DNA of 64,000 bases, from assembly GCA_963377175.1 (NCBI GenBank), contig CAUJNA010003322.1, positions 10,833 through 74,832 of the forward strand. The letters are read 5' to 3'. The notes under the pieces are model-generated. The model did no database searches. It saw nothing but the letters and a program-made list of their open reading frames with translations, and was not told the origin of the DNA. The position numbers were made by a program, and so were the translations under genes. The stretch's first letter is position 1. Each line of letters starts with the position of its first letter. This document shows positions 10,483 to 53,168 of the stretch, in pieces. This DNA comes from Effrenium voratum. Its lineage: Eukaryota > Sar > Dinophyceae > Suessiales > Symbiodiniaceae.

Positions 10483-10767
10483 TTGTCACCCCTGCTGCAG
10501 GAGAACAAACTGCAGTGGGAAAACCGCCCAAAAGGAGGCCAAAACGGGAAAATTACGGACAAGGTCCTTTTTGAACTTGCAAAGCACCTTCAACAGATGA
10601 AAGGGCGGATCTGTTCAGCACCAAAGATGAAGCCGGCGCACCTGCCGCGTATCAAGAACTCGGAGCGGGTTTATATTCTTCAGGCGGGCGGGCGAACAAG
10701 ACTTTCTTTCAGGGGCCCAGGGAATAGCTTTGGGCTGAAGTCCTACCCATTGGATGGTTTTTTGTAA
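10483..10767 (+). CDS. hypothetical exon-like frame
   Basis: After a CTGCAG acceptor at about 10,500 the frame reads ENKLQWENRPKGGQNGKI, TDKVLFELAKHLQQMKGR and LPRIKNSERVYIL before a stop. The composition looks protein-like and unlike the repeats around it. No family is recognised. Confidence 0.3.
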   Translation: MSPLLQENKLQWENRPKGGQNGKITDKVLFELAKHLQQMKGRICSAPKMKPAHLPRIKNSERVYILQAGGRTRLSFRGPGNSFGLKSYPLDGFL

Positions 10768-42143: not shown

Positions 42144-42148
42144 CAATG
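42144..42148. repeat. target-site duplication CAATG (left)
   Basis: CAATG directly precedes the left LTR and is repeated directly after the right LTR at 53,164-53,168. Five bases is the length expected for Ty1/copia integration. Confidence 0.9.
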
Positions 42149-42308
42149 TGTAGTTTGCAACGTGATGTATTTATCAACCATGATAACCCCAAATGCATGA
42201 GTGTCTCACCAGCGCAGCTTCGATACACCGGCTGCGCATGGCTCAAGAAAAGCGCGCTTTGGGCAGGGTTCATTGGTGACCCCTCCTGGTTGTTTAACCT
42301 GTTCTATA
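42149..42308 (+). repeat. 5' LTR, 160 bp
   Basis: It starts TGTAG and ends CTATA, a near-perfect inverted pair, and matches 53,004-53,163 at 156 of 160 positions. All four differences are C/T. It is short for an 11 kb element. It contains GCATGGCTCAAG, whose last nine bases equal the 3' end of the dinoflagellate spliced leader. Confidence 0.93.
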
Positions 42309-42322
42309 GGTTATCAGCCGTA
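42309..42322 (+). promoter_or_regulatory. candidate primer binding site
   Basis: GGTTATCAGCCG follows the LTR directly. It resembles the TGGTATCAGAGC complement of initiator tRNA-Met used by many copia elements, but with an extra T and mismatches. The true primer is not established. Confidence 0.4.
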
Positions 42323-42350
42323 AGCGGCTCTTTGTACAGAGTTGTACGCC

Positions 42351-44184
42351 ATGGATGGCAATCCTGGACTACCTCCTACCGAGGTGCGTCCCACACCTGA
42401 TGAGCATGCGGGCGATGAGGACGCCTCGCAATACGAACCAACTAGTCGCAAGTGGCCAGGGAGCTCATCAGGAAGGGACAAGCTTTGAGCAGTCAGGGCC
42501 CCGAATCGCTTCGATCTCGGAGCGACCGTGGGAGGACTGGGCGGTCTGGCGCTCGATCTCCTTCACCTGTTGGATCAGATCGGCATCGGCGTGGTGACAT
42601 CGTCATGTATGACCCCCAGGCCGACCTCGCAAGGGGAAACCCTATGCCACAGTCCATGACACAATTTAATCAACATCTTGCGAGCGTTCGCCTCGATCCT
42701 TCAATGACGGTCAACCAGGAGGTGACGCACTATCAGCAAATCAACGCTACTCAGAACAATGCCCAGTTCAACCAGTTCGTGAATCAGGACACCGGTCCCA
42801 TGGTCGCCCAATTGGCGGAGGCAAGACATGGCCAGATCGTTGCCGGACTTCAAAGCCAATCGGAGGCCATGAGGCGCGAGATCCAAAAGAATGCGGAGCA
42901 GCAAGCGAACACCGTCAAATCAGAAAGAGAAGCCGAGGTGAAATATCACAGCGCCATGAATACGATCAGCGAGCAGGAGAAGCAGATCAAGGAGCTGAGG
43001 GCAATGGTCGAGCAGATGATGCAGAACCAACAGCAACAGCCTGCCCAACCTGCTCCGGCTCCTCACCTCCTGTTCAGCAGGCGCCAGCGACTCCCTTGGC
43101 CACACCTCCAATTCCTTTGGCCGCATCTCCACCCGGACTTTCGAATGCTTCCTCACATAGTTGGACGAAGTCTACGGCAAAGACGGACCCATTCCCGCCG
43201 GGGCCGTGGATGATGCCGCTACCGGAGACGGTTGGCCTGGTGATGATGGAGATGGTGGAGGTGACAAGGACAAGAAAAAGAAGAAGAAGAAGAAAAAGAA
43301 GAAGAAGGGCCGAAGCCGACGCAGGCGACGAGATCCATCATCTTCTCCCTCGTCATCCTCATCGTCAACATCGACAGCGTCAGATGAGTCGTTTCGACGA
43401 AAGCTACTGAAGCACTTAGGGAATTCAAGCGATCCGACCACGGAACGTGTTCGTGTAAAGGAGGCAGAATTCAGATTCCCCGTTTCCCGAAGCCCGAACA
43501 GTACCGTAATTGGAGGATCAAAGTTAGGGATGCTGTTGTCGCTACTTCTGATCAACCCGAGAAGGCATTTGAGTGGATTGAGGCAACTTGGATCCCTGGT
43601 CAAACTGTGAAAGGTCCTTCGTGATTCAGGCATGTTTGTTCATCTTGACGCAAAGCTGGCATCGGCGCTGACGAACATCTTGGAGGGCGACCTGGCGCGG
43701 CAAGTCGACATTTTCAAGGAACAAGAAGCAAAGGGGAAACGATACGCGAGGGGACGCCAGATTCTTTTGATGATTCACAAGCACTTCAGCACGAACGTCA
43801 AACATGGTGCAATTTACGATTTTGAGGATTTGCTTTCTGTCCAGCTCATCAACGAGGACCTCAAGAATTTCATGACGAGATGGGAGACGGTCATCGCTGG
43901 AATGGGCAATGAAGGTGCTGTTCCACCGCCAGATTCGGAAATTTCGTCCTCTCAGTCACGATCTCAATGAATACGAGCGGGCTGAGGAAGGGACGGAGAA
44001 GCACTCCTATAAATTCTTGATTGACGCATCGAGGAATTATTTGGAGCGGAAGCGGCTTGTTCACATGTGGGATGCTATGTCGAGCAACACGACGGGACGT
44101 GGCCGGACTCCATCGAACAATCCTGCTGTTCCTGGAATCCCTAAGGGTGTATGTGTGAAATTCCAAACTGGCCAATGCACCTAA
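42351..44184 (+). pseudogene. gag region, frame-broken
   Basis: An ATG at 42,351 in a GCCATGG context opens MDGNPGLPPTEVRPTPDEHA but stops at 42,486. From 42,452 a second frame gives a Gln-rich, coiled-coil-like segment (KYHSAMNTISEQEKQIKEL). 43,161-43,610 gives an Asp/Gly stretch, a poly-Lys run and an Arg/Ser-rich stretch. The conserved part lies across 43,485-44,184: EQYRNWRIKVRDAVV, then LDAKLASALTNILEG, LKNFMTRWETVIAGM and YLERKRLVHMWDAM, typical of copia Gag capsid. It ends CVKFQTGQC followed by TAA, so no intact zinc knuckle is present. At least three frame changes break it. Gag would form the virus-like particle. Confidence 0.7.
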
Positions 44185-44294
44185 TGCGACTCTGATTTCG
44201 GTTGTGATTCCTGCATCCCCGCAGGCCTAACGGCCGAGCCAGAGAAGCCTGACATTCCCCCAAAAAGGGAAATTCTGCTGTTGCTTATCTACCA

Positions 44295-44600
44295 ATGGAT
44301 TCTTCTCACATTCCATGGATCGCGGACACAGGTGCTCAGGATTTGCTGTCGAGAATGGATGCGGAGACGGGAAGTATTTACGAATCGTCTCAACCGCTGA
44401 AGTTTTCCACTGCCAATGGGAATATTTTCGGTACTGAGCAGGCCAACGTCAAGATCAAACAGACCGATAGCGTTGTTCGGCCATATGTTCTTGATAAGAC
44501 TCCATCCGTGTTGTCCGTGGGTATGAGATGCCTCAAAGACGGGTATGACTTCGTTTGGAGAGCACACAGCAGACCTTATTTCAGACTTCCGGATGGTTGA
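44295..44600 (+). CDS. retrotransposon aspartic protease
   Basis: HIPWIADTGAQDLLSRM carries the DTGA catalytic motif at 44,325-44,336. The segment ends with VLSVGMRCLKDGYDF, as in copia proteases. Retropepsins act as dimers to cut the Gag-Pol polyprotein. A TGA at 44,598 interrupts the frame, which otherwise continues without shift into integrase; a CGA-to-TGA change would explain it. The frame probably began upstream as part of Gag-Pol. Confidence 0.8.
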   Translation: MDSSHIPWIADTGAQDLLSRMDAETGSIYESSQPLKFSTANGNIFGTEQANVKIKQTDSVVRPYVLDKTPSVLSVGMRCLKDGYDFVWRAHSRPYFRLPDG

Positions 44601-45735
44601 CGCATCAAGCTCGAGGTCAAAGATAATGTACCGTTTATCCCTTCCGAGACCCAAAATGTTGTTCCAGCTTTGTCGCAGAGCATTCCAAAGGTTACAACTT
44701 TGCCATCAGCTCCTATTGAAATTGAGGATGAAGTTTCAGTCATTGACGAAGAACCAGAAGCTGTGGAAGAAGTATTTGTGACCAATGAGGATGATGGCGA
44801 ATTGGGAAACGACGATTTCTTGCTTGAAGATGCTACCAGCCAACCGGAAGGTGAGGTCATTGAAAAGTGCCCTGACATTTCTTCTGAAGATGCGCCTAAG
44901 GTCATCGCTTCCGAGTTTGTGTCTAAGCCCGTTGTGAAGGATGCTCCTCACGAACGCGGTGAAGCTGCTTTTCGTGATGAGGCGACCTCGCTCCAGCACT
45001 TGATGTGTCACACTCCCAAGAACCCCTTTTGCGAAACTTGTAACAGGGCGAAGATGTACAAATATCCATCAAGACAAAAGGGAGGTTCCACTCAAGTCGA
45101 GGCTAAGAAGTTTGGTGATCACCTTACGGCGGGCCATCTCATAACTTCAGATGATCGTGAGATCGGCGTTGATCAATCCAGGGTGGCACTTGTCGTTCGA
45201 GACGTTGCTACTGATTTCCGTTATGTTTACCCAGCAGCGCGGAAAACCTCTCATCAATGCGTAATGGCCTTCAAACACTTTGTTCGTACCGGGGAAACCG
45301 CGAACATATTCTACAGTGATCGGGCTCCTGAACTTGTGAAAGTAGCGGATCAATTGGAATGCCATTGCTGAGAGGAACGTCAGGGCAATTATCGAGGGCG
45401 CAAGGACCAACCTGGAACAAGCTGGTTTGCGCCATTCGTATTGGCCACATGCGGCCAAACACTATTGCATGGCGCACAACATCACGGATCGCCCAGATTA
45501 TCATTCACCTTGGAAGGTACGTTTTGGCGAAAATTTTCCCGGACCATATTTGCCTTTTGGTTGTCAAGTCAACTTTTGGACTGGCCCGAAGAATCGACCC
45601 AACAAGCCTTTGAAGTTTGAGCCTACTTCCAGGGCTGGAATATTTCTGGGGTATCCTATTCATCCTGACTTTCTTTGGCGTCACGAATTTCTTGTTATTC
45701 CTTTACGGGATTTGATCAACCCATTGCTCCGCTGA
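44601..45735 (+). CDS. retrotransposon integrase
   Basis: After an acidic linker (44,670-44,960) comes the zinc-binding motif HLMCHTPKNPFCETCNRAKM. The catalytic core follows, with first Asp near DHLTAGH, second Asp in YSDRAPEL, and Glu in AIAERNVRAIIEGAR just after a frameshift at about 45,360. Further on are GLRHSYWPHAAKHYCMAHN and FLGYPIHP, matching copia integrase. It would insert the cDNA and is consistent with the 5-bp target duplication. Catalytic residues appear kept, but one frameshift splits the core and another follows at about 45,700. Confidence 0.85.
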
Positions 45736-46869
45736 CAGTAAATCAGATCAAATGTCCGGATGGCGAATTCTCTCTTCCAATGGTTGAACGGCATTTAATG
45801 CACATGAATGGCGTACTGCCAGGGCTTGAATACGCTCCTGAAACGCCTGATCCAGCTGCGTTAGACGCGCCGCTCTTGGAGGAGGATCTGCCGGCAGAAA
45901 TGCCAGGTCAGGAGGAAATCAGTGATGCTCAGGAACTCGCCGAAAACCTCGGAAAGCTAATCAAAGTTTCTCCCGAAAAGGGACCCGCGTCGGAAGAAAT
46001 GGTCAAAGTCATCGATTTAAAGACCAATTGATGCTTATGGAGCTATGCCTGGAAATTGCACCCAACAATCCGATGGGCGACAGGCATATACGCAGGCGTT
46101 ATACAAGGGAATCAAGACATGGGTGCGCCTCCCAAAATATCGCTGGCCGAAAGGTTGGGCCTCGAAGTTCAGCGATCCGGTGGTGCAACTTGTTCTTGCT
46201 CTCTACGGTCACCCGGATTCGGGGGGCCTGTGGGAGAAGCATTGTGAAGACATTCTTTTATCCCTTGGTTTCCGTCTTATATACCCTGGAGCCTGGCCTT
46301 CAGTTTTCTGGCATCCAAAACTTCGACTCCTGCTCGCAGTGTATGTCGACGACTTCAAGATGTCGGGTCCGGTTCAGAATGTTGCAAAAGGGTGGGAACT
46401 CATTTCTTCCAAAATTGACATGGATCCACCTTCGGCAGTCGGTAGGTACCTCGGATGTGAACACGTTGTCACGGAGAAGGTTCATCTTTCACCGGAACAT
46501 CATCCTTTCGCGCATGTTTTCAATCATGATCTGGAGGACCCATCCGACAAGACTGCAGCTGCAGCTCGCCGAGCTCAGGGTTACTGGGAACACTATCCAG
46601 AACATGGCGTGGTTGTTTGTCAACACGAGCAGCCAAGGCGCAAATTTCGCCGCACGCCGAACGGTGTTGCCAAAGAGATTGGGTTGGGCGGGACGCGGTA
46701 CACAGAGTGCAGTCCATGTTTTGACAAAGATGGTGCTGCTCAACAGTATTGGCATTTCGATGAAGACGAAAGAAAGCCAATCGAGCCAAAGGTTTTTCAT
46801 ATCTCGATGAACTGTTTCAGCATCAACCTTGCATGGACAAGCCTGTCACGCTGGTTACCTACGACATGA
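45736..46869 (+). CDS. reverse transcriptase, N-terminal part missing
   Basis: An acidic linker (APETPDPAALDAPLLEEDLP) is followed, after a shift near 46,015, by SDGRQAYTQALYKGIKTWV, ALYGHPDSGGLWEKH and LLLAVYVDDFKMSG (YVDD at 46,342-46,353). The Asp in SDGRQAY and the DD pair are the catalytic triad. Copia RTs normally have about 100 more residues before this (fingers, with a K-R-LVA-type motif). Those are absent, so the linker joins straight to the palm. The enzyme may be defective, or part may be lost by deletion. Confidence 0.85.
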
Positions 46870-48085
46870 CCGGCTTCCTCAAACAATGCCTTGACAGATA
46901 TGTTGAGCTTGCGGGGGGCAATGTTCAATTCAAGAAGGTATCCACTCCATTTCAGGATGACCGCATTGCAAGACCTACCAAAGATGACACGGAGAAGAAG
47001 GGCATTTTACAACCAATCGCCTCCAAAATTCTCATGAAGGTTCTGTTTGCTGCGCGGATGGCCCGTTTTGATCCGTTGAGAGCGACCCAGGGGCTGGCTT
47101 CTCGCGTCACAAAATGGTCCGTTGATTGTGACCAAGTGCTCTTCCGGTTCATGTGCTATATTCATACCACTGTTGATCGTAAGATGCACGGTTTCGTAGG
47201 TGACCCCTCATCGCGAACTCGACTTTGGTTATTTGCGGACTCAGATCATGCTGGCGAACACGATTCCCGCAGTACATCAGGATGTTTTCTTGCATTGATT
47301 GGTCCTAATACATTCTATCCTTTGACTGCGTTCTCCAAGAAGCAGACTTCCACTGCGATGTCATCCACCGAAGCTGAGGTGATTGCAGCCAATGTTGCAT
47401 TGCGTGCTGTTGGACTTCCGTCTTCCTGCCTCTGGGAGATCATACAGTCGGCGGGGGGTGGTAAAGAAAACCCAACATGCACTCTCACCCCATCAAGAAC
47501 TTCCGATTATTGGGTCAGCGACACAGTCAATGGATACATATTCAGAGTTCACAATAAAAAGAGAACCCAGTTGTTTGTTCCATCGAACGACGAGCCTTGT
47601 CCAGCACAAGATATACGGTTCAACTCTTTGGTGATGGCAGTGTTGACCTGAACGTGTCCCGAATTTGCTCAACCGGTTCAGAATACCAAACCGACTCCGT
47701 ATGGACAGGCAAGACGTACTTCTTCATGCGGGGGGCCGGCGAGGCCAATCTTGAAATCGAGGCCAAAGAGATCAGGGGCAACCTCACGGACTTTGATTAT
47801 GTTGGGAATGAACGTATCGGCAACGAGAATGTAACTCTAATCAACAACGGTTCTTTTGAAGGCGTCTTCCTCGAGGACAACCAGGCTGCTTTCCGCATTC
47901 TCGAAAGTGGTAGGTCCCCGGCTTTTCGTCACACTGACAAGACTCAACGTGTTAATCTTGCTTGGTTGGCGGAACAATTCAGGCGGAAACATTATAAGCT
48001 CACACACGTGTCTACTGAACTTCAGGCTGCAGATATTCTTACGAAGCCTTTCACAAATGCTGAGAAATGGCAAGGAGGGCTCAAG
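46833..48085 (+). CDS. RT connection and RNase H
   Basis: One frame gives MDKPVTLVTYDMTGFLKQ, then the RNase H core LWLFADSDHAGEHDSRSTSG and KKQTSTAMSSTEAEVIAAN, the copia ADxD and SSTEAE motifs. A spacer (DYWVSDTVNGYIFRVH, FVPSNDEPCP) crosses a frameshift at about 47,610 and continues WTGKTYFFM. It then completes RNase H with EDNQAAFRILESG and HVSTELQAADILTKPF, where the last Asp lies. RNase H removes template RNA during cDNA synthesis. The roughly 130-residue insert between the second and last RNase H motifs is much longer than in plant copia. Confidence 0.85.
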
Positions 48086-49264
48086 CTCATGAATATTGCT
48101 AGCAAAATTGATGTCTCAGGCGTGCCGGCTGCTGTGTCGCCACGCCTGGAGAAATCCGAGGCCAGGAACACGGGGGGTTCCCCTAATCGTATTCTGGTCG
48201 AAGTTTGCTGTTCACACGAGTCCAAGCTTGGTGATACTTTACGCCGCCCCGCCGTCGGTTGCCACGTGATTCGGATTACACAGGATGATGATATTCTTTC
48301 TCACGCCGCTCGAAAACGTGTCGTCGATGAGATGAAGCGCATCCGCTCTATTGGCAACAAGGTTTCCATTCCTGTTTTGATGTGGGCAAGCATACCTCGC
48401 ACTGGCGGCACTGCGTGGTCTCATATTAATATGAATCATGACACGGCGAAAGAGAAGGTGAAGCGACATCGATCCATTTACAAAAGAATTTGGTCTGCCT
48501 TCGTTGATCTCGTGAATTCCATGGAGTTTGCCAAACCGTTGATTGCTATTGAATGGCCAAGGAGTTGCACTTATTGGAATGAGATTGCTGTGGACAAGTT
48601 CGTAATTCGAAACAACATGACTGCTGTTAAATTTGACGGTTGTGCTGTTGGTGTCAAAACTAGTGAAGGGGTTCCTATGAAGAAACCGTGGATTAGAAAG
48701 ACCAACATGCATTGCCTCCACAATTACTTTGATGGAAGGGTGTGTTCTTGCACTGTTCAACGTGCTGAAGGTAGGGGACGAAATCTTAAGAACACTGAAT
48801 CCTACACACACATCATGACCGACTTGATTCACAAGGCCTTTGCTTATGCAGTGTCGGTTCAAGAAAAAGTTGCGGGTGCTTTAGTCGCAACCATGGCTGA
48901 ATCAATGCCTGTCAAGAAGGCCTTGAAGACGGTGCGATCTGCATTCAACGCAAGGTTCTACAAAGATGTGCCGCTGGCTCGGGTGGACTATGGCTCGGAC
49001 TACCTCCTGCACGACGGAAAGGTACAGGCCGAGGTCATTCCCGATCAGCTGAGCGTCGCCAACCGAGAGGCTTGGTCAGAAATGTTCCGTGATGCGGCAA
49101 CGCAATCATTCATCGTCAAAGACGTGAACTCCGGCGTCGACCTTGCAAAGATGAGTGAGCGAACCGATGCTCTGGCTCTCGCCAAGAACGCCATGACATC
49201 GTTGACAGGTGCTGCGGGTATTCTCAAAGAGGCTCCAGTTGAGGCATTTGATGTCCTCTTCTGA
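48086..49264 (+). CDS. accessory module with Rossmann/methyltransferase-like motifs
   Basis: In the same frame as the end of RNase H follows a new module. NRILVEVCCSHESKLGDTL looks like a first beta strand and loop, CHVIRITQDDDI like a second strand ending in acidic residues, VLMWASIPRTGGTAW like a motif-IV (S/N)PPxxG position, and IAIEWPRSCTYWN a late strand. This order resembles an SAM-dependent methyltransferase, but no canonical GxGxG is present. From memory, similar ASIPxTGGxxW modules follow RNase H in other dinoflagellate copia elements. Helical sequence follows to a TGA at 49,262. Function unknown. Confidence 0.6.
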   Translation, partial: LMNIASKIDVSGVPAAVSPRLEKSEARNTGGSPNRILVEVCCSHESKLGDTLRRPAVGCHVIRITQDDDILSHAARKRVVDEMKRIRSIGNKVSIPVLMWASIPRTGGTAWSHINMNHDTAKEKVKRHRSIYKRIWSAFVDLVNSMEFAKPLIAIEWPRSCTYWNEIAVDKFVIRNNMTAVKFDGCAVGVKTSEGVPMKKPWIRKTNMHCLHNYFDGRVCSCTVQRAEGRGRNLKNTESYTHIMTDLIHKAFAYAVSVQEKVAGALVATMAESMPVKKALKTVRSAFNARFYKDVPLARVDYGSDYLLHDGKVQAEVIPDQLSVANREAWSEMFRDAATQSFIVKDVNSGVDLAKMSERTDALALAKNAMTSLTGAAGILKEAPVEAFDVLF

Positions 49265-50233
49265 CCGGGGAAACCCGCTGTCAACTATATGTTTTTCGGC
49301 GATTCCTTCAACGCGTTGGTCAAAGATGGATCCAAGACAGATGTTGGCACCACCATTAAGGAGAACAAGAGGACTCTCTTCGGCCACAAGCATGAGGTGT
49401 GGTCTGAGATGACGTGGGGAAAAGGCCTATCTGAGTCGCTTGACGCTGCTGAACGAGCCATGATCAAGCTCGCCGAAAGGCCCGAGCCCAGACCCTATGT
49501 CATTGTCGTTTCGTGGTCCGGAAACGACGTTGTCGGTCGTACTGGTTACATCGACAACCCCGCCGCCCTAGCGGTCTGGGCCACGGATTCAGAGGCAAAG
49601 CGGAAAGCGGCAATGGACATCATCGAAAGGAATGCCAAGGCTGTGATGACAGTTCGTGACCGACTTCGTCACATCGCATTCAGGAGTGATGTCATCCAGG
49701 TCGTCCTAATCGTGCCGAGAGACTTCGAGACCTATGGGCTGAGCGAGTCGTACAAGGTACAGATGGACGGGCATTCCCGGCTTCTTCACCGATCAGCCGG
49801 GAGAACCGTGCTGGATCCGCAGACTCTTATTTCCAACACGTCACGGGCCGACAGGATTCACACGGAAGACAGTGAGCGGAACCGCAAACACTACATTAAT
49901 TATTCTGTAGCGGCCGCCAAGCTCGGTTACTCCATCGGTCAGATCACAAGGTTTGAGACTGCCATGAACTGGTTTCGCCTCGAAAGGGAGTACTTGGAAA
50001 TCGACACTTCAATCCCGATCGTTGGCGCAACACCCCAGGAAACTGGCGGTCCGGCAACTGCAAAGAACCCTGAGGACCCATTCGACAACGGGGTCCGTGA
50101 GAAGGAGCTTAAGGCGGTCAAGCAGATTGCTGCGCAGGAGCCGAAACGTGAAGTTTTCCTGGAGTGCGAGAAGGAGGCGAATCCTTTGTTTCCTCTCGAC
50201 ACCGTGAAAGAAGAGGCGGAATCCTCCACATGA
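49265..50233 (+). CDS. SGNH/GDSL hydrolase-like domain in the retrotransposon
   Basis: Beyond one in-frame TGA the same frame continues. Counting from Met 49,289, all main SGNH blocks appear in order: FFGDSFN (Ser 6, block I), a Gly-containing stretch WGKGLSES (possible block II), VIVVSWSGNDVVG (Asn 79, block III) and ADRIHTEDS (Asp 188 and His 191, block V DxxH). Length and spacing fit a small SGNH esterase/lipase. These enzymes use Ser-His-Asp with Gly/Asn as oxyanion hole to cut esters. Some LINE-type retrotransposons carry such an esterase in ORF1, but I know of none in copia. The substrate cannot be inferred. Its stop codon overlaps the next ATG (ATGA at 50,230). Confidence 0.7.
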   Translation, partial: PGKPAVNYMFFGDSFNALVKDGSKTDVGTTIKENKRTLFGHKHEVWSEMTWGKGLSESLDAAERAMIKLAERPEPRPYVIVVSWSGNDVVGRTGYIDNPAALAVWATDSEAKRKAAMDIIERNAKAVMTVRDRLRHIAFRSDVIQVVLIVPRDFETYGLSESYKVQMDGHSRLLHRSAGRTVLDPQTLISNTSRADRIHTEDSERNRKHYINYSVAAAKLGYSIGQITRFETAMNWFRLEREYLEIDTSIPIVGATPQETGGPATAKNPEDPFDNGVREKELKAVKQIAAQEPKREVFLECEKEANPLFPLDTVKEEAESST

Positions 50234-51411
50234 TGCAGCCGGACATCCATGCTGCAACCGTCAGCGGCCACAATGATGTGATCGATTGGTCTTCTTCGGA
50301 CGAGGAGGGTCAGGTGATCAGCTTCGACTTGCCCCCTGGCTATCAGCCAAAATCAAACCGGCCGAAAGGCCAGGCCGTTGAGGTTGCGGCAGTTGATCCA
50401 AATGACATTGGTGAGGATGGACAGATCAAGCTCATCCTCACCTCCAAGCCAACGAGTCACAACAAGATGACCGCAGCCCTCGGTGCTGCAACCCCGAAGA
50501 TGAAGGCAAAAGCCATGCCGAAGCAGGCTGCTTCGTCCAGTGATCAGGCAAAGGCGTCCGAGGCTGGAAGTAGCAAGACTCAGCCCGGAGAGATCCGTGG
50601 CCCGGAGATTTTCCCCAAGGCGAAGGCGGCCCCCAAGGCTGCTGGAAAGCCCGGGGAGACCCGTGGCCAAACAACGGAGCCGAAGCGAGAGTGGATCAAG
50701 TGCTCGGGAATCAAGATCCCCCAGATCCAGAATTTCGGCCGGAGGACCTTCCTGAGCAAAAAGATCTCGTATCTTGTCCGTGGACATGCCCATGAGAACG
50801 CGACACGGTCCATCCCCGAGATCAACCTCAAGGATAATTCTCTAGCTTATGCGGCCGTTGCGAAATGGATCCAGCGCCGGTACGACTGGAACTGTTCCCG
50901 GTACACCCTGCTGCAGGCCGTGAGCTTGTCCACCAGATTCGAGGTCTACGTGGAGTATGCTCCGGCGCGACAACAGTGGAATGGCCTCAATTTCATGCCA
51001 CTGAGAATCCGAGCATTTCCTGGGCACAGTGACTGGGTCACTGAGGCAAGCGGTTTCGACAATATCCCCGGCGAGCCCATCGCCATGGACGTGAACTACA
51101 CGATCAAGCATGCCAAGAAAGGGGTGCGGCCTGGATTCTGCAAAGATTTCACGGACGCACGCCGAAAGGCGCTGCCCAAGATCGCGTACCACACATGTAG
51201 CACGCAGAACTTCTTTGACATCATCTACATGGGCATCTTCCCTGGTGGAATGGGCGCCTACCTAGCGGTAGTGCCTCCTTGGGACAGGCGCGGCCGAAAG
51301 GAGGGGGGTGCGCGAGCTGATCGGCCCGTCAACATCGCCGTGGATGTCGAGATGTTGATCCAATTGGGCTGTAGGCTTTACGCACCCGGAGACGGGGGGA
51401 AGCCCTGGTGA
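50230..51411 (+). CDS. Tpt1/KptA RNA 2'-phosphotransferase-like domain
   Basis: The first 155 residues are disordered-looking (Lys/Ala/Pro-rich) with two PGE(I/T)RG repeats. A Tpt1/KptA-like domain follows: FLSKKISYLVRGHAHE (family: LSKxLSYxLRH), LSTRFEVY, LRIRAFPGHSDWV (family: IRAxQGHS), IAYHTCSTQNFFDIIYMGIF (family: xxHGTxxxxxxxIxxxGL) and RPVNIAVDVEMLIQLGCRLY (family: GxRxxRPVVLxVDxxxMxxxGxxFY). Tpt1 removes a 2'-phosphate from RNA splice junctions using NAD+, through ADP-ribosylation. The RH pair is changed to RGH, so activity is uncertain. The frame ends at TGA 51,409 just after a run of six G, and coding continues in another frame. Confidence 0.75.
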   Translation: MMQPDIHAATVSGHNDVIDWSSSDEEGQVISFDLPPGYQPKSNRPKGQAVEVAAVDPNDIGEDGQIKLILTSKPTSHNKMTAALGAATPKMKAKAMPKQAASSSDQAKASEAGSSKTQPGEIRGPEIFPKAKAAPKAAGKPGETRGQTTEPKREWIKCSGIKIPQIQNFGRRTFLSKKISYLVRGHAHENATRSIPEINLKDNSLAYAAVAKWIQRRYDWNCSRYTLLQAVSLSTRFEVYVEYAPARQQWNGLNFMPLRIRAFPGHSDWVTEASGFDNIPGEPIAMDVNYTIKHAKKGVRPGFCKDFTDARRKALPKIAYHTCSTQNFFDIIYMGIFPGGMGAYLAVVPPWDRRGRKEGGARADRPVNIAVDVEMLIQLGCRLYAPGDGGKPW

Positions 51412-52016
51412 CAGAGGATTGGATCACGAACAAAGTGATCATCTATGCGTATGATGCTGAATACGCGAGACTCATTTGGTCCAATCGCATGTACGTCAGC
51501 GTGCGGAGGAACTATCAGGACAGCGTCAAAAAGTTTCGTGAGGAGACTCAGAAGGGCGTGAGCGGAACCCCGGTGCTTGAGTCATGTATGGCCAAGACGG
51601 ACCGAGAGTGCAAACTCTACTACAAGCAATGGGCCCCGACTGCTTGCCGTGATATGATGAGGCCTCACCGGATCGGAAACGTGACCAAGGTCAAAAACGT
51701 CTATGATGAAAACCTCCCCAAGGGGGAACAGGTCGCCCTCGAGTTTGAAACTGCTTGGTACGGTCTTTATAGGAACTGGGCTCGTGCGGTACAGCAGCAG
51801 CCCGGGGAGACCCGTGGCCAAAGCGGACTTTGGCAGGACGCGGAGGTCATGCACATCCCTGATGTCGAGTGTCCTCGCTGTAAGATCATGATCCCTGAGG
51901 GCACAATCAATTGCTATCAATGTGACAACCTCATCGAGCGCATGCCCGACATCAAAAAGATCGCAAGGGTCATTCGATTGCAAGAGATGGCCACAGTTTG
52001 GGCGTGCCGCTTTTGA
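51408..52016 (+). CDS. zinc-ribbon segment following the Tpt1-like domain
   Basis: One frame back from the previous segment, the sequence continues DWITNKVIIYAYDAEYARLI, a helical part, a third PGETRG and a four-Cys ribbon CPRCKIMIPEGTINCYQC (C-x2-C-x10-C-x2-C). It is most likely the same polyprotein, reached by an indel or slip in the G run. The zinc ribbon may bind nucleic acid. A further one-base shift at about 51,990 leads to the last segment. Confidence 0.6.
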   Translation: MTEDWITNKVIIYAYDAEYARLIWSNRMYVSVRRNYQDSVKKFREETQKGVSGTPVLESCMAKTDRECKLYYKQWAPTACRDMMRPHRIGNVTKVKNVYDENLPKGEQVALEFETAWYGLYRNWARAVQQQPGETRGQSGLWQDAEVMHIPDVECPRCKIMIPEGTINCYQCDNLIERMPDIKKIARVIRLQEMATVWACRF

Positions 52017-52741
52017 TGGACCAGGTTGAGACCCAGATCTTGACGCAGCGAAAGGATGCAAGGGGCGACAGTAGCGCCAGAGGGGGACTCGGTATCATGA
52101 AGGATATCGCGAAGAAAGCCGTTCTCCGAAACAAGGAATACAACACCTTGTATGAACGCCTGATCAATGACCCCTTCTACGCTTACACGGCCGCGCGGGG
52201 AGACCTGACGCCTTCTGCTCTCGAGTTCATCGAGAAGGTTGCACGCTGTATCATCCCAAGCTTCGAGCGGACAAAGGAGATGATTCAGGGCAGTGTCGCC
52301 GTGCCCAAGTACTCCGCACGGCTAACGCTGGTGCCACCGAGTGAAGACGTCAAAGAGATCGACCCCAAGGATGTGTACGTTGTGCATGGAGGCAGATTCT
52401 TTGAGACCGAGCAATTTGCCGCCTTGTATGGGAGCTTGGACAAGAACGATCGCTACCCGGTGATGGGCTGGAGCCGTGATTTCACATCCATTGGCGATCC
52501 TGAAGCCGTCCTGGTCGAGTTGCTCTGTTTCGTTGAGATCCCCGGCATCCAAATCCCTGGTCGAGCCACTCCTCTCCCTGCAGTTGTTGGGGTGACGCGC
52601 AAGCCCATCCCTCAGCTCCGGGAGAGTGGTGGCCAATGGCAAGATCAGCAATGGAGCCAATCGTACTGGAGAGCCTGGGACTCATGGTGGTCTGATGATC
52701 AGCGCCCGTGGAAGAGCTCCCGCAATTGGGACTGGCGATGA
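51998..52741 (+). CDS. C-terminal segment with Trp-rich tail
   Basis: The frame reads LLMDQVETQILTQRKDARGD, a helical middle (YNTLYERLINDPFYAY, LEFIEKVARCIIPSFER), a possible globular part (DVYVVHGGRFFETEQFAALY) and a tail rich in Trp, Gln and Ser (SYWRAWDSWWSDDQRPW). It ends at TGA 52,739. No family is recognised. Its place suggests it is the last domain of the element's polyprotein. Confidence 0.55.
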   Translation: MGVPLLMDQVETQILTQRKDARGDSSARGGLGIMKDIAKKAVLRNKEYNTLYERLINDPFYAYTAARGDLTPSALEFIEKVARCIIPSFERTKEMIQGSVAVPKYSARLTLVPPSEDVKEIDPKDVYVVHGGRFFETEQFAALYGSLDKNDRYPVMGWSRDFTSIGDPEAVLVELLCFVEIPGIQIPGRATPLPAVVGVTRKPIPQLRESGGQWQDQQWSQSYWRAWDSWWSDDQRPWKSSRNWDWR

Positions 52742-53003
52742 GTGAGCAACCTCCTCGGCTGACATCCAATTACACCTCAAATCCACTATTAATTATACTT
52801 GTCATTTTATGTTGGCCGAGGAGCAATGTACAGGTATGAGTACGCCTCGCGAGAGCGATGGTCAGTAGAGGCGGAAGACCTTAACTGGCTGTTGCTTGTA
52901 CTTGAGTGCTTATATCCTGCAAAATGACCTCATGCCGCTCGGGTTTCTTTGGTTGTTTCATCCCTTTCATTTGTCCTCCTGTTTCACATACGGGCACGGG
53001 GGG
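52742..53003 (+). other. 3' untranslated region and short polypurine end of the element
   Basis: Non-coding stretch between the last stop and the right LTR. It ends in GGGCACGGGGGG, a short G-rich run that could serve as polypurine tract for plus-strand priming. Confidence 0.5.
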
Positions 53004-53168
53004 TGTAGTTTGCAACGTGATGTATTTATCAACCATGATAACTCCAAATGCATGAGTGTCTCACTAGCGCAGCTTCGATACACCGGCTGCGCATGGCTCA
53101 AGAAAAGCGCGCTTTGGGCAGGGTTCATTGGTGACCCTTCCTGGCTGTTTAACCTGTTCTATACAATG
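53004..53168 (+). repeat. 3' LTR (53,004-53,163) and right target duplication CAATG
   Basis: Same 160 bases as the left LTR apart from four C/T differences, with TGTAG and CTATA ends. CAATG at 53,164-53,168 repeats the left flank, which fixes the element ends to the base. Confidence 0.93.

Follow-up and report, generated by a model that had tools for sequence, protein, structure and literature searches.

Elements of the Ty1/Copia type (Pseudoviridae) have long terminal repeats (LTRs), a primer-binding site (PBS), a polypurine tract (PPT) and one gag-pol frame with protease, integrase and reverse transcriptase (RT)-RNase H, measure 4 to >9 kb, and are profiled with no domain after RNase H other than a separate env-like open reading frame (ORF) (PMC8515867). 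Added enzymes are described from other elements and viruses in the accessible portions of the respective sources: SymbioLINE-Dnmt and SymbioDIRS-Dnmt3 of dinoflagellates bear a cytosine-methyltransferase domain (PMC5890265), Vesta elements of bdelloid rotifers an SGNH/GDSL enzyme (PMC5408684), LINE esterases an SGNH hydrolase for which a lipid-linked role was proposed (PMC3905857), and Beihai picorna-like virus and a few other RNA viruses a Tpt1/KptA-family domain (PMC9503650). In the accessible text of de Mendoza 2018, retrotransposon methyltransferases are suggested to be able to mark retrotranscribed DNA, and the Copia superfamily is stated to be without any DNA methyltransferase (DNMT) domain (PMC5890265). 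Here we analyse a stretch of 64,000 nucleotides from the dinoflagellate Effrenium voratum (contig CAUJNA010003322.1; hereafter the window), in which positions 42149-53163 are an LTR retrotransposon of Copia domain order whose coding continues for about 4.5 kb beyond RNase H into a cassette of enzyme-like domains.

The cassette is of old standing, under selection and mobile. In the organism's own assembly (1.156 Gb), its first piece is matched at least 78 times (77 candidates of 4840 were scored), at least six of the matches having open frames of more than 4000 codons. Ten relatives were taken, each in two halves: in six, no stop interrupts the stretch between the two LTRs (4083 codons in three, then 4089, 4067 and 4065), so that these are intact 12.9-kb elements reading from Gag to the cassette in a single frame, and four (C2280, C113, C2 and C1114) have no continuous Gag-to-cassette frame. 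Paired LTRs, each pair with a 5-bp duplication, are present in nine of the ten (the duplication of C2524 lies one base off the assigned coordinates); C1114 has no LTR match in the fetched stretch. The LTR pairs of the main family are identical in seven of eight copies, with one difference in 161 positions in the other, and the two differences in the C2524 pair are both at its ends, where the coordinates took in flanking bases, so both the main family and the C2524 family moved recently. Since the main-family LTRs are 81-84% like those of the window (75% in C2524), the window copy is a relative that stands outside the same young burst. The first-pass annotation had described a Copia-type LTR element with a CAATG duplication, canonical domains stopping near 48.1 kb, coding that continues inside the LTRs, and a cassette that moved with the element. 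This description stands: 160-bp LTRs, 97.5% alike and flanked on both sides by CAATG, enclose the cassette, RNase H ends near 48.1 kb, open pieces reach 52741, and the nine LTR-paired relatives each have their duplication.

The order of the cassette is conserved in two distant families. Copies lacking it had been proposed as a check, and the cassette is kept at 75 or more of the 78 listed DNMT-fold matches, each of which is followed by a Tpt1-like match on its own strand no more than 4.5 kb downstream (105 of 158 Tpt1-like places were used for this count, and one element supplies two of the 78); the three listed matches without one lie on C216, C1114 and C3310. With the Tpt1-like query (150 of 569 candidates scored), at least 17 places are found at 31-32% identity, with open frames of 4207 amino acids (four), 5161 (one), 5056 (one) and shorter. 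One of these places, on C2888, represents a second family; its 14 kb start inside the frame and hence leave the LTRs out of view. It has Gag (with CCCH fingers), then protease, integrase, RT and RNase H, followed by the cassette in the same order: DNMT-fold domain with LPCTGG, SGNH domain with GDS/GND/DxxH, linker, Tpt1-like domain, zinc-ribbon-like segment (region D5) and C-terminal domain (D6). Its identity to the intact relative C3146 is 46% in Pol, 48% in the RNase H end plus DNMT-fold, 26% in SGNH, 31% in the Tpt1-like domain and 22% in D5-D6 (24% to C2524), and its linker gives no match.

Purifying selection on the cassette, for which a test had also been suggested, is borne out by ratios of non-synonymous to synonymous substitution (dN/dS): for the domains with computable dS, two intact families give 0.07-0.17. 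By counting, C3146 and C2524 give 0.073 for the DNMT-fold, 0.137 for D2, 0.134 for SGNH, 0.167 for D5 and 0.168 for D6, and, outside the cassette, 0.039 for RT-RNase H and 0.077 for Gag; computable dS is 1.4-2.3, and it is saturated in the Tpt1-like part (dN 0.19) and the linker (dN 0.30), so these ratios are approximate, though all are far below 1. Between the window copy and C3146 the cassette ratios are 0.045-0.14, with dS saturated in D5, and near-identical main-family copies give second-half values of 1.4 (35 changes) and 2.1 (8 changes), too few changes to use. The cassette is almost certainly conserved and working.

In the window, the cassette is spread over the open pieces 47558-49264, 49265-50233, 50152-51411, 51375-52016 and 51926-52741. 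Three of the five were searched and match 81, 18 and 19 database proteins (109 different ones), so they are not chance frames; Pfam gives one match worth naming, a weak one to Tpt1/KptA. The domain types, assigned from predicted folds and sequence matches, are very probably as named here, and at least three enzyme-like domains, the number proposed beforehand, can be recognized (DNMT-fold, SGNH-like and Tpt1-like).

The first domain is predicted to adopt the fold of C5-cytosine DNA methyltransferases. A Pro-Cys and a Glu, which we take to be motif IV and motif VI, are kept in 23 and 24, respectively, of 26 non-redundant rows; among 20 own-genome loci, 19 have the Cys, the sole exception being the window copy. 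Hydrolases and a phage methylase come out best among BFVD models. A profile of RNase H plus this domain (A3) finds no PDB chain at E <= 10, and scanned against viral contigs it matches 30 stretches with no relative confirmed; neither PHROGs nor NCBIfam has a helpful match to the methyltransferase-fold or SGNH domains. For the second domain an SGNH/GDSL fold is predicted, and the alignment retains the Ser in 11/11 rows reaching it, the Gly in 9/12, the Asn in 13/13 and the His of DxxH in 8/9; the LINE esterase structure of ZfL2-1 (4c1b) is listed at E 0.22.

The Tpt1/KptA model PF01885 has a cut-off of 26 bits, which is passed by the C2888 family (43.6 bits, E 4.4e-11) and by protein P0017 (26.3 bits); four proteins from the family of the window copy (its own, P0004, P0006 and C3146) stay under it at 13.9-19.3 bits, and P0008 has no match. 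A Tpt1-like profile matches the tRNA 2'-phosphotransferase 7kw8 at E 0.0065. The single protein L042:1-690 reaches TRPT1 chains just at E 0.03-0.05, where ribosomal L11 scores as well, and P0017 alone as query finds no Tpt1 chain. The Tpt1 tetrad Arg-His-Arg-Arg is, in the accessible text, termed essential as a whole, although the His contacts nothing but the junction 3'-phosphate and its replacement by alanine slows step 2 just threefold (PMC6333775). Mapped by hand from our alignments, the first Arg is present in 4/4 rows and each of the other two in 3/4. Beyond this domain, the region of the second family that corresponds to the zinc-ribbon-like segment contains C-x4-C and C-x2-C, and D6 has no match in the Pfam scans of the window, the intact relative and the second family.

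On a local domain map, the DNMT-fold domain follows RNase H in most proteins showing both and precedes RT in P0069, P0071, P0091, P0095 and P0097. These five fall within one clade of six in a midpoint-rooted RNase H tree (support 1.0), and four of them are in a clade of six in the tree of the domain itself (0.93); the label "after" is carried by 24 tree rows, four of which are hand-labelled halves of two own-genome elements. The domain is therefore old in these elements and has shifted within Pol, most simply once. Elsewhere in the window (10537-10688, plus strand) lies a short Copia remnant with 58-64% identity over 22-26 amino acids to P0091, a member of the before-RT lineage.

The reading that we favour, if only slightly, is that the window holds a decayed giant Copia-type element, in whose relatives a single Gag-Pol frame runs into a cassette whose likely task is to process, in the particle, nucleic acids of the element itself. 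As intact 12.9-kb relatives read all of this in one frame, a retrotransposon can carry a toolkit that would act on its own nucleic acids, and one frame implies one polyprotein. The polyprotein would probably be cut by the protease and packaged. The methyltransferase-fold domain would mark new cDNA before integration, by analogy with other dinoflagellate retrotransposon methyltransferases; the Tpt1-like domain, with NAD+, would free cut RNA ends of their 2'-phosphates so that they can be extended, be it those of a tRNA primer or of nicked genomic RNA; and the SGNH domain would free an acyl group from a lipid or ribonucleoprotein partner in assembly or transport, a step possibly tied to lipids, as has been suggested for the esterases of LINEs. 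That cDNA marking and RNA-end healing both take place is rather less likely than not. Its fullest form is more doubtful still: the Tpt1-like domain would ready a half-tRNA primer or nicked genomic RNA for RT, a methyltransferase invisible to Pfam would methylate the cDNA, and this would happen in a lineage of giant Copia elements with two clades, one placing the DNMT-fold ahead of RT and one placing it behind RNase H. The claim to an old, selected function is strong and the claim on mechanism weak.

Several observations weigh against this reading. PF00145 matches none of the 43 relatives at E <= 1, one of which touches DNM3A_N at chance level (E 0.13), and we therefore speak of a DNMT-fold domain and not of a DNMT; none of the 43 matches a Pfam SGNH/GDSL model at that threshold either, hence the name SGNH-like. 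The Gly after WGK in the SGNH block is Asp in P0047-P0049, and the pair P0077 and P0078 has lost the Cys and Glu of the DNMT-fold, with the SGNH Ser, Gly and Asn blocks retained in P0077. At the tetrad His, 4/4 rows have Gly, so the third domain is named Tpt1-like and is not filed as a Tpt1 enzyme, and P0017 has Lys at two of the three tetrad Arg positions; the missing His would suit an enzyme acting on RNA ends that lack a 3'-phosphate. For the Tpt1-like/D5 part, the model (A5) was set aside because of its predicted local distance difference test (pLDDT) score of 38. The cassette domains evolve faster than RT-RNase H (0.07-0.17 vs 0.04), on ratios that are, as said, approximate. Finally, a canonical initiator-tRNA pattern has 0 matches in the own assembly, so a tRNA is no more than a candidate primer.

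The same domains could instead be turned on host processes, the DNMT-fold disguising element DNA from host silencing and the Tpt1-like domain helping to repair tRNAs or element RNA cut by RNases of the host. Such a counter-defence module is possible but improbable. In the accessible part of one source, KptA is described as a repair enzyme with which phages counter defences that cut tRNAs, and as a domain within the polyproteins of a few RNA viruses (PMC9503650), and retroelement accessory domains have been proposed as antiviral tools, again in a partly accessible text; however, the scanned cassette pieces contain no RNA-ligase match (D5 and D6 being without assignment), and in-frame fusion to Pol would better suit a role in the particle. 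Less probable again, and unlikely overall, is an env-like or membrane-handling module in which the SGNH hydrolase works and the DNMT-fold and Tpt1-like domains are non-catalytic binders of RNA or DNA. The losses in P0077 and P0078 and the replaced Tpt1 His would fit it, as would the GDSL ORF3s that rotifer LTR elements place downstream of Pol (in the accessible account of these), but it leaves unexplained why Pro-Cys is retained in most non-redundant rows and own-genome loci, and three of four tetrad positions in 3/4 rows.

Two further explanations are already contradicted. Retroelement accessory genes can be captured host genes, and the cassette might be a set of passengers acquired by recent transduction with no role in transposition; yet its order is common to two families whose Pol is 46% identical, dN/dS is well below 1, and at least 75 of the 78 listed matches are co-linear, so recent capture is ruled out and the passenger explanation is very improbable. 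An assembly artefact, or chance neighbouring genes between unrelated repeats, has in its favour only the decayed state of the window copy, and against it stand nine LTR-paired relatives on nine contigs with a 5-bp duplication of their own, which rule it out with near certainty.

Table 1. Features of the giant Copia-type element in the window (positions on the 64,000-nucleotide stretch). Domain names are predictions.
Feature	Position	Strand	Basis
Target site duplication CAATG, left	42144..42148	.	Read in sequence
5' LTR	42149..42308	+	160 bp, 97.5% identity with 53004-53163
PBS candidate GGTTATCAGCCGTAAGCGGCTC	42309..42330	+	Inner hairpin AGCCG-TAAG-CGGCT
Gag region, broken frames	42446..44184	+	ORFs; CCCH zinc fingers in Gag of intact relative
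Aspartic protease region, broken	44253..44600	+	Weak Asp_protease_2, E 0.14; gag-asp_proteas in intact relative E 0.007, under cut-off
Integrase region, broken	44601..45735	+	SH3_retrovirus E 7e-4, under Pfam cut-off
RT, partial	46021..46869	+	RVT_2 E 3e-5 (3.3e-5), under curated cut-off
RNase H, two overlapping frames	46764..48090	+	ORFs 46764-47651 and start of 47558-49264; relatives
DNMT-fold domain	48180..48878	+	Motif-IV-like Pro-Cys is Pro-Arg in window copy
SGNH/GDSL hydrolase-like domain	49271..49990	+	Blocks GDS, WGKG, GND, DxxH
Low-complexity linker	50233..50736	+	63% identity between two intact families vs 72% in Tpt1-like part
Tpt1/KptA-like domain	50737..51384	+	PF01885 E 1.3e-3; 24-base core stretch missing in window copy
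D5 region, zinc-ribbon-like CPRC...CYQC at ~51864-51935	51408..51980	+	DZR E 0.07, under cut-off
C-terminal domain D6	52004..52741	+	dN/dS 0.06 to intact relative C3146; no Pfam match
PPT GGGGGG	52998..53003	+	Read in sequence; relatives have the same
3' LTR	53004..53163	+	160 bp, paired with 42149-42308 at 97.5%
Target site duplication CAATG, right	53164..53168	.	Read in sequence

The window copy is decayed: compared with one intact relative it misses 717, 791 and 121 bases and smaller stretches, and its frames are broken (Table 1). The order Gag, protease, integrase, RT and RNase H is clear in the intact relatives, where integrase stands ahead of RT in the intact frame as in Copia; RVT_2 is also under its curated cut-off in C3146 (E 1.4e-4). 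The Gag of the intact copy L023:3796-5595 has CCCH fingers (zf-CCCH E 2.5e-5, zf-CCCH_4 E 8.8e-7), and no CCHC knuckle is listed in its Pfam scan. Between the window and C3146, dS is 1.15-1.75 in 49265-52741 (D5 saturated) vs 0.37-0.54 in 44601-49264 (integrase to DNMT-fold), and judging from this sequence comparison the copy may have arisen by recombination between two lineages.

At the element ends, GGTTATCAGCC... directly after the 5' LTR and GGGGGG before the 3' LTR occupy the places of PBS and PPT, and the 22-nt post-LTR site is conserved in all nine LTR-paired relatives, including C2524 with its less similar LTR. The anticodon loop of a plant initiator tRNA, in what we take to be its sequence, would pair with 10 of the first 11 nt of this site, but the canonical initiator pattern is absent from the assembly. 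The 11-nt site combined with a B-box pattern occurs at two places in the own assembly (reversed control: one), where ARAGORN finds 0 tRNAs; these searches lend no support to a half initiator tRNA as the candidate primer. On the minus strand of L043 near 1500, 16 nt are complementary to the conserved post-LTR site (CTTACGGCTGATAACC), longer than the 11 nt searched, and are possibly the primer site of another element family.

Apart from the element, the window has long simple-repeat arrays at 5.8-8.0, 25.4-27.9 and 53.8-53.9 kb that yield long spurious frames. The spliced-leader sequence, taken in its usual form, has 251 exact matches in the genome (reversed control 0) and none in the window, which backs the dinoflagellate origin of the assembly as very likely, and contig C722 (G000) carries a tandem array of exact copies at 109-123 kb.

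If the proposed reading is true, it would change the published statement that dinoflagellate Copia elements have no methyltransferase domains, add an NAD+-linked RNA-repair-type domain to retroelements, and show that selection maintains a Pol frame exceeding 4000 codons; the cassette domains are of a size suited to direct biochemistry. The literature searched, mostly papers outside subscription, contains no Tpt1/KptA domain in a retroelement, no SGNH or DNMT-fold domain in Copia, and no such combination. The first-pass annotation had named the element the best candidate for an undescribed system, and in the literature searched this holds for the Tpt1-like domain, as far as our searches show the first in a retroelement, and likewise for Copia as the host and for the combination; it does not hold for methyltransferases in dinoflagellate LINE and DIRS elements or GDSL enzymes in rotifer LTR elements, both already in print in the partly accessible sources.

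In comparison with the described systems, the element shares with SymbioLINE-Dnmt and SymbioDIRS-Dnmt3 a cytosine-methyltransferase-type domain in a dinoflagellate retrotransposon, in SymbioDIRS even within the Pol polyprotein; those are LINE and DIRS elements found by PF00145, whereas here the element is Copia, the fold is predicted and PF00145 does not match (PMC5890265, accessible part). Like Vesta, it is an LTR element with an added SGNH/GDSL enzyme, but the Vesta enzyme lies in a separate ORF3 outside the Pol frame of a retrovirus-like element, with no mention of a methyltransferase in the accessible text (PMC5408684). LINE esterases likewise place an SGNH hydrolase on a retrotransposon, there as ORF1 of non-LTR elements in a gag-like position (PMC3905857, in part). 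The RNA viruses with a KptA-family domain in their polyprotein are not retroelements, and the accessible text on them makes no mention of a retrotransposon (PMC9503650). With the Pseudoviridae the element shares LTRs, a PBS (here a candidate), a PPT and a single gag-pol frame, and it exceeds their described profile in the 12.9 kb of its intact relatives and in the approximately 4.5 kb that follow RNase H in frame (PMC8515867).

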